A stretch of 64,000 bases of DNA, from the NCBI GenBank assembly GCA_024655885.1, contig JANLFN010000006.1, positions 124,001 through 188,000 of the forward strand, given 5' to 3'. Each line of letters opens with the position of its first letter. The first letter of the stretch is position 1. The position numbers were made by a program, and so were the translations under genes. The notes under the pieces were generated by a model that did no database searches, had not been told where the DNA came from, and worked only from the letters and a program-made list of their open reading frames with translations. The stretch comes from Eubacteriales bacterium (GTDB lineage: Bacteria; Bacillota; Clostridia; Acetivibrionales; JANLFN01). Of the stretch, positions 16,605-42,039 are shown piece by piece.

Positions 16605-17735
16605 TCATTCACAGCCCCGCCCCGATAAGCTGTTGAAAAACGCTTCCACATTGCTGTGTTCCGCCTGGTATGGGAGAGCACAACCTGAGCCCAGGATAAA
16701 GCCGCCCTCTCTCCCTACTTCTTCCACCAGCCTGGCGCAGTATTGCGCCACCTTTTCACTTGTCCCCACGGTAAAAAGAGTGGCCGGCACATCTCCCAGC
16801 AGGCAGAAGCGGTCTCCGAACTCTCTTTTTACCATAAAAATATCGGTGCAGCCGTCCAGTTCCAACACTATTTTCTCCTTGGGCAATTCCGAGAAATAGG
16901 GCATATTTAAAGACCAGTCGCCGTCCAGATGTAGAAAAGGTGTTATGCCTTCATCTAAAAAAGCGTTAATATACCGTTTTAGAAAGGGCCAGACAAATCT
17001 TTCGAAAAAGGCCAGAGAAAAATACTGTCCGCACATCCGTGCGATGCCCACCATGACACGGGGAATGCCGGTCTGTTTGATGGTTTCCTTAACTTCGCGG
17101 ATATTAAAATCCGTGATGATGGAAACAGCCTCTTCCAGCACGTCGGGAATTTGCCTCACATCCCTGATAAACTCGCAATAAGACCGCATGAGAGAAATTC
17201 TGTCTGTAGCAAAGGTAAAGCCTCCCCCGTATAAAGCTACCTGTCCGCATCTTTTGGCATCTTCTATCTCTATTAACCGGATTTGGAGTCTCTCTTCTTT
17301 TGCCTGTTTAATCTCCTTTTTTGTTGCTCCGTGGACTCTTTTAAAAAATTCTGCCCCGTAGGCTTCAAACCCTTTTTTAATTAAAAGGGAGTAATCCCGC
17401 CGCTTCATAACTTCAGACTCAACAAACTGGTATTCATAATTTTCGGGAAGGTCTACGCCGGGGATTTTATTTTTTAATAACCCCGCTTTTTTTTGAAGGG
17501 GGCCATAGTATGAATCGTATAGCGACCGTCTCACATCCCACACAGGATAGGCATTCTTTAGCATCTCAAGGGCGTTGAAAGCTTTTGTGTAATCAAAATA
17601 ATACTCATAATTTGAAATGCCTGCATATCTTGCGGCATAGTTTTGAATTAAAGGGGCACACGGAATACGGTCCGCACGTTCAAGCCTCATGACGGCATTC
17701 AGCCGTTCTTCAGGCGTAAATTTTTTATTTTCCAT
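16605..17735 (-). CDS. UroD-family corrinoid methyltransferase-like protein
   Basis: This 376-residue protein belongs to the uroporphyrinogen-decarboxylase superfamily, in the branch used for methyl transfer to or from corrinoid proteins (MtaA/MtbA/CmuA relatives). It starts with the usual TPEERLNAVMRLERADRIPC segment and ends with a GSGCALPYQAEHSNVEAF motif. The zinc-site region reads FLHLDGDW: His is kept but the classic His-x-Cys is His-x-Asp, so the metal site may differ. It is the last gene of a GntR-corrinoid-UroD operon, 60 bases after the corrinoid gene, with AGGAAG before the ATG. Substrate unknown; porphyrin synthesis is unlikely in this context. Confidence 0.85.
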   Translation of the reverse strand: MENKKFTPEERLNAVMRLERADRIPCAPLIQNYAARYAGISNYEYYFDYTKAFNALEMLKNAYPVWDVRRSLYDSYYGPLQKKAGLLKNKIPGVDLPENYEYQFVESEVMKRRDYSLLIKKGFEAYGAEFFKRVHGATKKEIKQAKEERLQIRLIEIEDAKRCGQVALYGGGFTFATDRISLMRSYCEFIRDVRQIPDVLEEAVSIITDFNIREVKETIKQTGIPRVMVGIARMCGQYFSLAFFERFVWPFLKRYINAFLDEGITPFLHLDGDWSLNMPYFSELPKEKIVLELDGCTDIFMVKREFGDRFCLLGDVPATLFTVGTSEKVAQYCARLVEEVGREGGFILGSGCALPYQAEHSNVEAFFNSLSGRGCE

Positions 17736-18454: not shown

Positions 18455-19180
18455 CTAAAACGTTCTTTTTATCCTGTCGTTAAAAGAAGAAACCGCATGA
18501 AGATGGCAATACTCTCCTCTAAAGTATATCTTTCCCCAGCCTACGGGCTTATTCCCATCGTCAAAAAGCTTTTGCTCTATGACCATCAAAGGGTGCCCCT
18601 CTTCTGTCTTTAAAAATTTTATTTCTTCCCCCTGGGCCTTCTTGACCCATATGGTAAGTTCATTTTTTACCGAGAACAGGGACATCCTGGCTGCCACGAT
18701 TTCGGGAAACGTGGCGTACTGGATTACTTCCTCCACAATGGGCTTCCCTTTATCGTAAGGCAAATACTTGATGTCGTAAGCAAAAGGTTCTCTCTGTGAA
18801 TAGGACAATCTGCGTATTACAACGGTTTTTTGTTTTCTCTTCAGCTGCAACTGCTTTATTAGTTCTTCTGTGGGCGATATAATATTGACTTCAAGAAGCT
18901 GCGTCCTGTCTGCATGTTCCTTGATAATGTCCATCTCGTTGAAATGAAGAATGTGCCTGTTATGGTCCGGCTCGCATACAAAGCTCCCCTTCCCGGGAAC
19001 AGAATAGATATACCCTCCTTCGGTCAGCAGCGCCAGTCCCTTTCGCACCGTCATCCTGGTAGTGTTATATTCCTTGCACAGGCTGCTCTCAGAGGGAATC
19101 ATTTCCCCAGGTTTAAGGATACCCTTATTGATTTTTGAACGAATATCTTCCACTACCTGCTCATATATTGTTGAAGCCAA
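18455..19180 (-). CDS. GntR/HutC-type (UTRA) transcriptional regulator
   Basis: This 241-residue repressor-type protein has an N-terminal winged helix (about 1-75; IPSESSLCKEYNTTRMTVRK) and a C-terminal UTRA ligand domain (about 90-235). The start is TTG with AAGGAG at 9 bases. As first gene of the operon it probably autoregulates and controls the corrinoid/UroD genes below it. The C-terminal ~150 codons are nearly base-for-base identical to the regulator at 23427-24059 whereas the N-terminal third differs at many positions, which indicates recent gene conversion or partial duplication. The effector may be the methylated substrate or its product. Confidence 0.92.
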   Translation of the reverse strand: MASTIYEQVVEDIRSKINKGILKPGEMIPSESSLCKEYNTTRMTVRKGLALLTEGGYIYSVPGKGSFVCEPDHNRHILHFNEMDIIKEHADRTQLLEVNIISPTEELIKQLQLKRKQKTVVIRRLSYSQREPFAYDIKYLPYDKGKPIVEEVIQYATFPEIVAARMSLFSVKNELTIWVKKAQGEEIKFLKTEEGHPLMVIEQKLFDDGNKPVGWGKIYFRGEYCHLHAVSSFNDRIKRTF

Positions 19181-23426: not shown

Positions 23427-24059
23427 CTAAAGCGCCCTTTTAGTCCTGTCGCTAAAGGAAGAAACCGCATGAAGATGGCAATACTCTCCTCTAAAGTATA
23501 TCTTTCCCCAGCCTACGGGCTTATTCCCATCGTCAAAAAGCTTTTGCTCTATGACCATCAAAGGGTGCCCCTCTTCTGTCTTTAAAAATTTTATTTCTTC
23601 CCCCTGGGCCTTCTTGACCCATATGGTAAGTTCATTTTTTACCGAGAACAGGGACATCCTGGCTGCCACGATTTCGGGAAACGTGGCGTACTGGATTACT
23701 TCCTCCACAATGGGCTTCCCTTTATCGTAAGGCAAATACTTGATGTCGTAAGCAAAAGGTTCTCTCTGTGAATAGGACAATCTGCGTATTACAACGGTTT
23801 TTTGTTTTTCGTTGAAATGAAGAATATGCCTGTTGTGGTCGGGCTCGCAAACAAAGCTCCCCTTCCCGGAAACAGAATAGATATACCCTCCTTCGGTCAG
23901 CAGCGCCAGCGCCTTCCGCACCGTCATCCTGGTGGTGTTGTACTCCCTGCACAGGCTGCTCTCGGATGGGATCATCCCGCCGGGCTTGAGGGCCCCCCTG
24001 TTGATTTTAAAACGGATATCCTGCACTATTTGTTCATATATTGTGGAAGCCAAAAGCAA
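23427..24059 (-). CDS. GntR/UTRA regulator with internal 33-codon deletion
   Basis: This 210-residue paralog of the regulator at 18455-19180 keeps the winged helix (IPSESSLCREYNTTRMTVRK). It lacks 33 consecutive residues between HILHFNE and KQKTVVIRR, i.e. the linker and first strands of the UTRA domain. The frame is preserved. Downstream of the gap the DNA is essentially identical to the other copy; upstream it differs at many third positions. The equivalent TTG start is at 24053. It may bind DNA without normal effector response, or be a pseudogene. It lies upstream of the second corrinoid module on the same strand. Confidence 0.85.
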   Translation of the reverse strand: MLLASTIYEQIVQDIRFKINRGALKPGGMIPSESSLCREYNTTRMTVRKALALLTEGGYIYSVSGKGSFVCEPDHNRHILHFNEKQKTVVIRRLSYSQREPFAYDIKYLPYDKGKPIVEEVIQYATFPEIVAARMSLFSVKNELTIWVKKAQGEEIKFLKTEEGHPLMVIEQKLFDDGNKPVGWGKIYFRGEYCHLHAVSSFSDRTKRAL

Positions 24060-24174: not shown

Positions 24175-24807
24175 TCAGGCAATTCCCATGCCGACAAGCG
24201 CCACCAGGGCCATATCGCTCACAAAGGCTTCCGGGCTGGGTATGCGGCTTTTGGAAACATCCTTAATGGCTATGGCATATACGTGGACACACCTTTGTAT
24301 CATGTCATTCAACACGCTGCTGACTTCCCCCAAAATTCTCCTTGTGATTTTTACGAACTTTGAATCCAAAAGTATAAACGAGCATCTCTTTAGCAGCTGG
24401 TCCGGAGCTCCCTTTGACACAATTCTCATCTTTCCGTTGATCAGATGGGTTGAAACCTTGAGGCTGTCGTCATATTCAAAGGTCAGCTCCGGTACTCTTG
24501 GGGCCACACTTTCAATCAGTCTTTTGTCAAAACCCTTTGAAAGGGTGTAGTTGAAGATGGCCTTCTCATAGTCATCTCCGATGATATGGAGCTGATTGCC
24601 GTTAACTTTCATAACCTCGGCACAGTTGCTTAAAATGAGGGAATGCATAAAAATTCCGTAGCTTTTCTCATCCTCATCAATAAGCTGGGCTTTCTTAAGC
24701 TTTCCGTCCAGGTAAATCTCATCAACTGCAAGCCTAAAACCTCTTTCCATTTTTGGAATGCCTGTTTTTACAGTCTGCATGGCTGTCTTTTGTAAAGCTG
24801 CATCCAT
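24175..24807 (-). CDS. stand-alone P-type ATPase nucleotide-binding (N) domain protein
   Basis: This ~210-residue protein matches only the cytoplasmic N domain of cation P-type ATPases: a GDDYEKAI segment (cf. GDPTE), FEYDDSLKVST (cf. FDSxRKRM) and the ATP-site motif SKGAPDQLLKRC. It ends at LVALVGMGIA, where full pumps continue with the hinge. It has no membrane helices, no DKTGT phosphorylation loop and no TGES, so it cannot pump. I chose the ATG at 24807 because AAAGGAG lies 8 bases before it; upstream codons belong to the riboswitch. It could be a regulatory ATP-binding remnant of a Mn2+/Ca2+ exporter. Confidence 0.7.
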   Translation of the reverse strand: MDAALQKTAMQTVKTGIPKMERGFRLAVDEIYLDGKLKKAQLIDEDEKSYGIFMHSLILSNCAEVMKVNGNQLHIIGDDYEKAIFNYTLSKGFDKRLIESVAPRVPELTFEYDDSLKVSTHLINGKMRIVSKGAPDQLLKRCSFILLDSKFVKITRRILGEVSSVLNDMIQRCVHVYAIAIKDVSKSRIPSPEAFVSDMALVALVGMGIA

Positions 24808-24838
24808 GTACAACGCTCCTTTCAGGGCAGTAAAATAT

Positions 24839-24970
24839 AAAACTCCGCACCTGTTCCCTTTAGGCAAGGTGCAGAGTCTCACGAATTGTCATGACAAAAC
24901 CGGGCTGAAAGCCGTACTGACGGTTTGTCCTCTGTAAAGCGACATTTACAGACCGTTACTCCCTCTGTGA
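24839..24970 (-). promoter_or_regulatory. probable yybP-ykoY (manganese) riboswitch with expression-platform terminator
   Basis: The minus-strand leader shows features of this class: an opening AGAGGGAGTAACGG, a middle hairpin region, and a TGTCATGACA/CGTGAGACTCTGCACC segment. These lead into a perfect hairpin CTCTGCACCT/AGGTGCGGAG (24876-24843) ending in TTTT. The class senses Mn2+ and commonly controls P-type ATPases, MntP and TerC exporters, which matches the downstream N-domain gene. Assignment is by eye, without a covariance search. Confidence 0.7.
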
Positions 24971-25185
24971 TTTTCATATGATTTCCATAGTGGCCAATAT
25001 CCTTAAGTTTTCCTGATTTTTCATCTGTTATAGCCAATGTGTATAACTTCACATATTCACTTTTAATATATTTAATATTAATATAAATAATATTAATGTG
25101 TCAATAAATAAATTGTAAAATAAGTGTGAATAAAAAAAGGCAGGCCAATAATATGTTCCTGGGTTCCCTTAGGGTACCTTCGGAA

Positions 25186-39162: not shown

Positions 39163-42039
39163 TTACTGCGTAATACCGTCTTTTTCAGCGGCTGCATCAT
39201 CCCTGCCGATTACTTCATCAAGCTGTTCTTCATAGCTTCTCAATTTGTTCTGAATTTCTTTTTTTAATTGTATTGCATCCTGCCTGATATATTCCAACTT
39301 TTCCTTCTGAATAACCGCTTGCTGCTCTATTTTTTCTTTTTCCAGCAATGCATCTTTTTTAGCTTCTTCTAAAATATTTTCAGCCTGTTGCTGGGTTTTT
39401 ATTAGAATATCCGCTATTTTTAATTTAAGCTCATTGGTATCTTCTAATTTCCGGCTAAGAATATTCACCCTGTTTTTGAGCTCATTATTCTGCTTTTCAA
39501 GTTCCAGAAGCTTAGCATCCTGTTCTTTAACCCTCATTTCCAGCATGTTCGTATCTGCTTGCGCTTGTACAGCTGATCTGTTCTTTACGCTGACCTCTTT
39601 AGCGTCTTTGGCCCTTTTGTTGGAATTAAACCGCTTTAAGCTCAAAGAATTTGTCACAACCGATACAGAACTAAATGCCATTGCGCCCCCGGCAATCATC
39701 GGATTCAAGAATCCCAATGCCGCAAAGGGTATGCCGATCACATTGTAGAAAAACGCCCAGAACAGGTTTTGTTTTATTTTATTCATCGTCTTCCGTGAAA
39801 GGCGGATCGCCGTGGGTATGGTCCTTAAATCCCCCCGCATCAGGGTAATGTCCGCAGCTTCAATGGCCACATCCGTTCCTGTTCCTATGGCCATTCCGAT
39901 ATGGGCGGTGGCAAGGGCGGGCGCATCGTTGATGCCGTCCCCCACCATGGCCACCACCTTTCCTTCGGCTTTCAGCTTTTCAACCTCTTCCGCCTTGTTT
40001 TCCGGCAGGACTTCCGCCAAAACATGGGTAATCCCCACCTGCCTGGCAATGGCATTGGCAGTCCGGCGGTTGTCGCCTGTAATCATGTAAACCTCAATGC
40101 CCATCCGCTGCAAATCCTCAATGGCCTCTTTGGAGCTGTCCTTCAAGGTATCGGCAACTGCCACAACGGCTTGCATGGAATTGTCGACGGCCATGAGCAT
40201 GGCAGTTTTTCCTTCGTCTTCAAGCCTTGCGATGGTGGACTCAACGTTTCCCACATCAATACCTTTTTCGTTCATCAACTTTCTTGTGCCGATATAGACG
40301 ATGCTCCCGTCAATCTCTGCCATAACACCCCTGCCTGGAATTGCTTCAAACCTTTCAGGGTCCGGAATACTGCCAAGTGTCTTTTTGCCTTCTTCGTAAA
40401 TAGCCACCCCAAGAGGGTGTTCAGAATTTTTCTCGGCGGCGGCCGCCATTTTCAACAGCTCCGTTTTATTGAACCGACCCAAAGAAACTATATCCGTGAC
40501 TTCCGGCTGTCCCTTGGTGATTGTCCCTGTCTTATCCAATACAACCGCATTCAGCTTGTAGGCTGTTTCCAGATGTTCCCCGCCCTTTATGAGAATACCG
40601 TTTTCAGCGCCCTTGCCCGTACCCACCATAATGGCCGTGGGTGTGGCGAGTCCCAATGCGCAAGGGCATGCGATGACCAATACCGCAACCGCGCTGACCA
40701 TAGCCCTGGTCAAATCTCCGCTGTAGAAGTACCATACGGCAAATGTCAGCACCGCGATTCCTACAACAACGGGTACAAACACACCTGAAACCTTATCAGC
40801 GATTTTCTGTATGGGTGCCTTTGATCCCTGGGCATCCTCCACCATTTTGATGATCTGTGAAAGCACTGTATCTTTGCCTACTTTTGTCGCTTCAAATTTG
40901 AATGTCCCGTATTTGTTAATGGTAGCACCGATAACGGAATCTCCTGTTTTCTTCTCCACCGGCAGGCTCTCCCCGGTAAGCATTGCTTCATCTATAGAAG
41001 AATTTCCTTCGATAATTATTCCATCCACCGGAACCTTCTCGCCGGGTCTGACAATAACGACATCCCCTATTTCAACCTCTTCGATGGGAATATCCTCTTC
41101 CACCCCGTCACGTATTACCCTGGCAGTCTTTGCCTGCAGGCCCATAAGCTTTTTTATCGCCTCGGAGGTTTTCCCTTTTGCAACCGCCTCCAGGTACTTC
41201 CCTAAAAGGATCAGCGTAATAATAACTGCCGCAGCTTCAAAGTACAGGTCTTTCATCATACCTACCCCTCCGGTCAGGAAGAAAACATTATATAGGCTGT
41301 AGAAATACGCGGCTGATGTCCCCATCGAAATCAGTACATCCATGTTGGCGCTTCCGGCTCTTAAAGCATAAAATGCATGCTTGTAAAACCGGAACCCGAT
41401 GATGAATTGAATGGGAGTTGCAATGGCCAGTTGAAAATAAGGGTTGTGCAGTACAGCCAGCCATGGCACCTCCAGACGGGCGACGGTCAAAACCATTGCG
41501 AGCAGCAGAGGGGAGCTTAACAGAGCAGAGATTATAAGTGTTATCTTAAGACCACGTATCTCCTTTTTCCGGAGTTCCCTTTCCCTGTCCTTTGTCACAT
41601 CCTCTGCCTTTTCAGCATCGTACCCCAAAGACTGTACAGCTTTTATCATATCGGATACTTTTATCTCCGCCGGGTCAAACTCCACCGATGCTTTCTCCGT
41701 CGCAAGATTTACGGTTGCTTTAACAACCCCGCCCAGCTTGCTGAGTTTTTTCTCGATTTTTGCTGCACATGCGGCACAGGTCATACCCTTGATTCTTAAA
41801 TCCACCCTGCTTTCCCCGGCTGCCTTTTCTTCTATCACTTCATAGCCAAGTTTCTTTATACTGGACTCTAAGTCCTGCATGCTCACAAGCTTGTCATCAT
41901 ACTCGACCGTGGCTTTTTCCATTGCAAAGTTCACATTTGCCCAGCTGACTCCATCCAGTTTGCTTAATCCCTTCTCTATCCTTGCAGCACATGCAGCACA
42001 GCTCATACCTGATATCTTAAACGATTCCTTCCTGTTCAT
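39163..42039 (-). CDS. copA: copper-exporting P1B-type ATPase CopA with C-terminal coiled-coil extension
   Basis: This 958-residue protein is ~130 residues longer than usual CopA. It has two N-terminal HMA domains ([15 protein letters not shown] and [15 protein letters not shown]), about eight membrane helices, actuator motif LTGESLPV, metal-site CPC in [13 protein letters not shown], phosphorylation site [13 protein letters not shown]-domain SEHPLG and [10 protein letters not shown]. These show a complete Cu(I) exporter. After the last helix (~residue 815) comes a Lys/Glu/Gln-rich coiled coil of ~120 residues ([20 protein letters not shown] and neighbours) resembling the C-terminal half of DivIVA. 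The frame is continuous, so the tail is a real fusion. It might localise or oligomerise the pump; this is inference. Confidence 0.95.

Follow-up and report, generated by a model that had tools for sequence, protein, structure and literature searches.

A stand-alone P-type ATPase N domain of 210 amino acids is encoded at 24175–24807 on the minus strand of the window (the whole 64,000-nucleotide stretch of DNA analysed here), behind a leader RNA that appears to be a divergent Mn2+ riboswitch. We consider it fairly probable, from sequence evidence, that this locus is a Mn2+-controlled gene for an ancient, domesticated and non-transporting pseudo-N-domain, which probably acts by binding rather than by catalysis.

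The stand-alone N domain and its nucleotide contacts

The reading frame is open for 210 codons from an ATG at 24807, with an AAAGGAG ribosome site (ribosome-binding site GAAAGGAG, 24816–24823, minus strand, identified by sequence). The protein matches the Pfam family Cation_ATPase (PF13246) with 42.2 bits against a gathering cut-off of 21.7, which places it among the N domains, and the best solved-structure match of the family profile is the N domain of the Listeria Ca2+-ATPase LMCA1 (E 8e-9). When aligned with full pumps, it starts directly past the expected end of DKTGTLT and ends at LVGM, directly ahead of the expected DPPR; therefore, the protein is an N domain excised at the N/P hinge. 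The features of a functional pump (the DKTGT phosphorylation motif, A domain, P domain and membrane helices) are absent from the protein and its surroundings, and its hydropathy profile, with a highest 19-residue value of 1.49, reveals no clear membrane segment. Comparison of the sister pump with the window found no other pieces of it near the gene, the remaining matches being to an unrelated CopA at 39–42 kb. Thus, the initial annotation was correct in describing an N domain with no pump body.

Flanking genes vary between carrier genomes, and no conserved operon partner adjoins the N-domain gene across the carriers' neighbourhoods. Elsewhere in the window, the CopA-type copper ATPase (39163–42039), the one further P-type ATPase seen there, has its own N domain, two N-terminal metal-binding repeats and a coiled-coil-like C-terminal tail of ~150 residues. 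Two GntR/UTRA regulator genes (18455–19180 and 23427–24059) are near copies of one another (98% identity over 383 bp, 86% over 258 bp), and the second carries an in-frame deletion of ~33 codons between its DNA-binding and UTRA parts.

Among 58 genomes of the order, 17 carry stand-alone N-domain genes, 18 in all; because several of these carriers are closed genomes, an assembly gap is excluded. None of the 18 proteins retains the equivalents of SERCA T441, R560 or L562, and Tyr invariably stands in the place of L562, whereas nine of nine pumps compared have kept all three. Tyr177, His55 and Asp34 of the solitary protein are invariant. The K492 equivalent is lost in 12 and that of F487 in eight (kept in 10), the E442 equivalent is kept in 15, and every one of the 18 has K or R at the K515 position (R in seven). 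In SERCA, Phe487 and Arg560 anchor the nucleotide (PMC3203174). Judged at these seven positions (T441, E442, F487, K492, K515, R560 and L562), the solitary proteins do not have the contacts of an ATP-binding N domain. A pump-like ATP site is therefore unlikely, and the loss of the key ATP-gripping residues suggests that the domain has probably been repurposed for a new job.

The protein might instead work as a pump piece in trans, either supplying an N domain to a pump that has none or docking on a full-length P-type ATPase as a regulator. Isolated N domains of other P-type ATPases fold alone in solved structures, ~5 kb separates the gene from its sister pump in G023, and the window's genome does contain P-type ATPases. 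However, no pump without an N domain was found in that genome; because five of the five P-type ATPases found there carry their own N-domain-sized segment, the idea that the protein makes up for an N domain missing from another pump is not supported. The sister pump of the window's genome is, moreover, gutted. At G000:C14:46991-47750 (L144:692-1433), a canonical Mn riboswitch heads a P2A pump in which residues 1–36 are joined out of frame to residues 750–887, with everything between deleted. Thus, in this genome the solitary gene survives without an intact sister pump, and such a pump is not its partner. An N domain stripped of its ATP contacts could, we would expect, hardly phosphorylate a pump in trans, and we regard a trans-acting role as unlikely.

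We consider it quite improbable that the domain has kept its binding of ATP or another nucleotide and serves, under Mn2+ control, as a readout of the energy or second-messenger state. Such a sensor would fit the fold, which is that of a nucleotide-binding domain, and the frequent retention of the E442, K515 and F487 equivalents, but it is at odds with the invariable replacement of the other three positions and the common loss of K492. The same three replacements count against the independent ATP-sensing protein proposed in the initial annotation. In the reading we prefer, the induced protein would bind a partner (a protein or a ligand) in the response to excess Mn2+, with no pump-style ATP hydrolysis or sensing; we think it most likely that binding is how the protein serves the cell under Mn2+ stress.

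The leader RNA and its predicted switch

Models R1 and R3, folding and pair conservation place a putative divergent yybP-ykoY-type (Mn2+) riboswitch aptamer, with P1, P1.2, P2, P3, L1 and L3, at 24870–24970 on the minus strand. Folded without the terminator, the window RNA forms this aptamer, in which P1 (24967–24963 with 24876–24872) is accompanied by P1.2, P2 and P3; the stability of the aptamer fold alone lies within the range of shuffled sequences (z −0.74). The 5′ strand of the switch helix P1, CAGAG (24963–24967), is followed by the L1 motif GGAGUAAC. By sequence and fold, its 3′ strand, CUCUG (24872–24876), is common to the 5′ arm of an intrinsic terminator hairpin with a U-rich tail (24832–24880, minus strand), which confirms the terminator predicted earlier (−23.0 kcal/mol, z −6.16 versus shuffles). 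P1 and the terminator are mutually exclusive, as membership of the yybP-ykoY class demands. A further mark of the class, the invariant Mn-sensing adenosine of L3, has its counterpart in the UCA at 24920–24918, where A at 24918 occupies the place of A41 of Lactococcus lactis (UCA41AUUC) in a comparison with the L3 sequences described, together with the role of A41/A48, in PMC6754395. In solved riboswitches, specificity for Mn comes from this adenosine, and the ion stabilises P1.1 in its competition with the terminator (PMC6754395, PMC11087558).

From the UCA in the L3 loop, the P1 strand common to the terminator and the known Mn mechanism, we infer a Mn2+ ON switch. A rise in Mn2+ would lead L1 and L3 to dock around the ion and P1 to form; P1, once formed, would block the terminator and the N-domain gene would be transcribed, as in L. 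lactis. The N-domain gene is probably switched on by Mn2+ through this leader RNA.

The Rfam search proposed as a check of the riboswitch gave no match of RF00080 to the leader, either at the gathering score, which is an operational cut-off and not a biochemical feature, or at E ≤ 10. At its gathering cut-off, RF00080 found no match in any of 60 related genomes, despite clear Mn riboswitches there; plain Mn riboswitches before UPF0016, TerC, P2A pump and antiporter genes of the order score about 16–39 bits with it. RF00080 is insensitive in this order and misses the Mn riboswitches of the whole order, so its failure on the window leader is not decisive. Model R1 was built from 11 Mn riboswitches of relatives, with no leader of the solitary N-domain family included, and it matched the window at 24970–24870 (minus strand) at a score of 28.1 bits (E 5.6e-5 over the 64 kb), the only window match with E < 0.1. 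Thus, the yybP-ykoY call fails by RF00080 and stands by homology, through an independent clade-specific model. A weak R1 match on the plus strand (17378–17478; 15.3 bits, E 0.15), with GGGAGUAA and UCAACA, is probably due to chance.

Searched against the 58 genomes of the order, R1 returned 63 Mn riboswitch candidates in 34 genomes. Those inspected precede UPF0016, TerC, MntP, CaCA antiporter, DedA-type and P2A pump genes, a set largely as expected for Mn efflux, the gene names being assigned mostly by reading of the sequences. The model also detects leaders of orthologues of the N-domain gene, in G023 (39.4 bits), G013 (32.2 bits), G033 (45.9 bits, of canonical type), G024 and G045.

The divergent type of leader is not confined to solitary genes. 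The window leader's motifs CAGAGGGAGUAACGG..CUG, GUCA..ACGG, CCCGG.UU and UCGUGAGACUCUGCA recur in the leaders that immediately precede full-length P2A pumps in G017, G023 and G025. Over six leaders of this type, from solitary genes and pumps, 98.5% of structure/pair cells pair, compared with 23–46% in slid controls, and four pairs have two-sided changes. Model R3, built from the divergent type, scores the window leader at 98.5 bits, with the window sequence included in the model. It also finds three leaders left out of its building (G049, G051 and G040; E 6e-17 to 3e-16), all of them before TerC, whose genes in sister genomes have a canonical Mn riboswitch as leader. In Vibrio, the Mn exporters TerC and MneA (UPF0016) are controlled by yybP-ykoY (PMC13274385). 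This gene context of pumps and TerC is the best evidence that the divergent leader type may sense Mn2+. The R1 match and the covariation over solitary-gene and pump leaders establish likeness in both sequence and structure to the clade's Mn riboswitches, and they support the view that the leader is homologous to the Mn riboswitches that precede P2A pumps and TerC exporters. The pump loci G017:C42 and G023:C84 each have two Mn riboswitches in tandem on one strand: first a canonical one, which precedes a DedA/VTT gene in G017 and a Zn_peptidase_2 gene in G023, and then, immediately after that gene, the divergent riboswitch and the pump.

R1 or R3 finds the leader in eight of the 18 orthologues (the window, G013, G023, G033:C65, G024, G054, G045 and G056), of which four have intact-looking aptamers (the window, G013, G023 and G033). 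P1 and the terminator are kept and the L3 arm is lost in G024, G056 and G045; L3 is changed in G054; and in the leaders of the remaining 10 orthologues neither model recognised a riboswitch. Mn control is therefore not universal in the family, and the search for orthologues of the same length and with the same leader succeeded fully for length but for fewer than half in the leader. The three leaders without an L3 arm, and the low score of the window aptamer (28 bits), would suit a riboswitch-derived terminator/antiterminator in which Mn2+ sensing has been lost. We find this rather improbable for the window, since its leader and those of G013 and G023 retain L1, the UCA of L3, P2 and P3, and since the same leader type precedes TerC exporters.

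Upstream of the Mn2+-responsive leader that we propose lies a promoter element, TTTACAATTTATTTATTGACA-N18-TAATAT with the initial transcribed region (25061–25119, minus strand), recognised by alignment and by the sequence-only model R2, its −35 and −10 also being found separately. Fourteen of the 18 solitary genes have this 60-bp element upstream, conserved at a mean column identity of 80%. R2, built from these same sequences, gives one strong match per carrier genome, that in the window's genome being G000:C41:149061-149119:- (E 1.5e-9). Some of its weaker matches elsewhere fall on promoters of genes with a Mn riboswitch (G000:C62, G029:C97, G017:C42 and G033:C49). In G037, a genome in which no N-domain gene was found, the element also lies ahead of several consecutive TerD-like genes (C10:149267-149320; E 1.1e-5); it bears an inverted repeat, ATTAACAATATT..AATATTGTTAAT, possibly an operator.

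Conservation and descent of the family

The 18 solitary proteins, of 205–221 amino acids, form one clade with a support of 100/100. In the 58 genomes of the order, they score 291–354 bits with the family profile versus 176 for the best full-length pump, and dN/dS is 0.07–0.12 in close pairs of the solitary genes. Among about 760 sampled genomes of the phylum outside the order, the solitary family was not found: the class sample yielded no solitary N-domain protein at E ≤ 1e-35, and the phylum sample none at E ≤ 1e-30, where the matches were pumps of 885–898 amino acids only. On this comparative evidence, the solitary N-domain protein is a conserved single family under purifying selection, cut at the N/P hinge. 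A viral origin was rejected, no relative having been found in viral contigs.

That the gene is a pseudogene, whether a decayed Mn2+ exporter fragment or an assembly artefact, is extremely improbable and was rejected: the protein is by homology a pump fragment and the window's genome does hold a gutted riboswitch-controlled pump, but that pump is at a different locus and has no N domain, and where the initial annotation would have taken full-length orthologues and neutral dN/dS as the sign of a pseudogene, we found that 17 genomes contain intact solitary orthologues of matching length, which form one clade with low dN/dS and a conserved promoter.

In the tree, the nearest N domains are those of the pumps of G023, G034 and G017, and the signature YLDGKL..SFGIFxHSLxLxN is common to the solitary family and these sister pumps. 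The best model for the G023 pump is TIGR01522 (PMR1-type Ca2+ ATPase), at 734 bits, below that model's curated 798. The leaders of the three nearest pumps are of the same divergent type in two (G017 and G023) and a canonical Mn riboswitch in the third. Because the nearest pumps carry Mn riboswitch leaders, the gene and its leader were most likely derived together from a Mn-riboswitch-controlled pump. These data support descent from a Mn-riboswitch-controlled exporter through an ancient event that gave rise to a conserved family. The earlier suggestion of a Mn2+ exporter reduced to its N domain thus holds for the descent, but not as a recent reduction in the window's genome.

Comparison with known systems

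The Mn2+ riboswitch is known mainly as a switch for exporters. We found no paper in the open-access literature, where absence is not proof, on solitary P-type N domains or on an N-domain gene as a Mn riboswitch target. The family may represent a novel kind of effector under Mn2+ riboswitch control, although we give this somewhat less than an even chance: an N domain that left its pump to serve in the Mn2+ stress response as a soluble, ATP-independent protein that regulates or that binds metals or ligands, and that selection has kept in one order even where the parent pump has been lost. If true, a conserved target that arose from an exporter but does not itself transport would point to a further, unrecognised layer of Mn2+ homeostasis, and it would be a clear example of a catalytic domain leaving its pump to become a protein in its own right.

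The closest known relatives are the PMR1-type P2A Ca2+/Mn2+ ATPases of G023, G017 and G034, whose homologous N domain is 35–37% identical to the solitary protein and which share with it the signature and a Mn riboswitch leader, those of G023 and G017 being of the window's type. The pumps differ in possessing membrane, A and P domains and DKTGT, all four absent from the solitary protein, and in having their ATP contacts intact where the solitary protein keeps only part of them. The N domains of LMCA1 (lmo0841) and SERCA belong to the same fold family by profile, with the E value to LMCA1 given above, but the equivalents of R491 (LMCA1) / R560 (SERCA), T441 and L562 are replaced in the solitary proteins. 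With the yybP-ykoY riboswitch (RF00080), the leader has in common the L1 sequence GGGAGUA, an L3 with the Mn-sensing adenosine, the P1/P1.2/P2/P3 architecture and a P1 3′ strand common to the terminator, and the same leader type is linked to P2A pumps and TerC; it differs in falling below the gathering cut-off and being missed even at E ≤ 10, and in controlling a gene that is not a transporter. Canonical members in the clade have UUAAAGG-like P1 strands, GUAAC after L1 and CGUGAGACUCUGC at the 3′ end, whereas P1 of the window leader is CAGAG/CUCUG.
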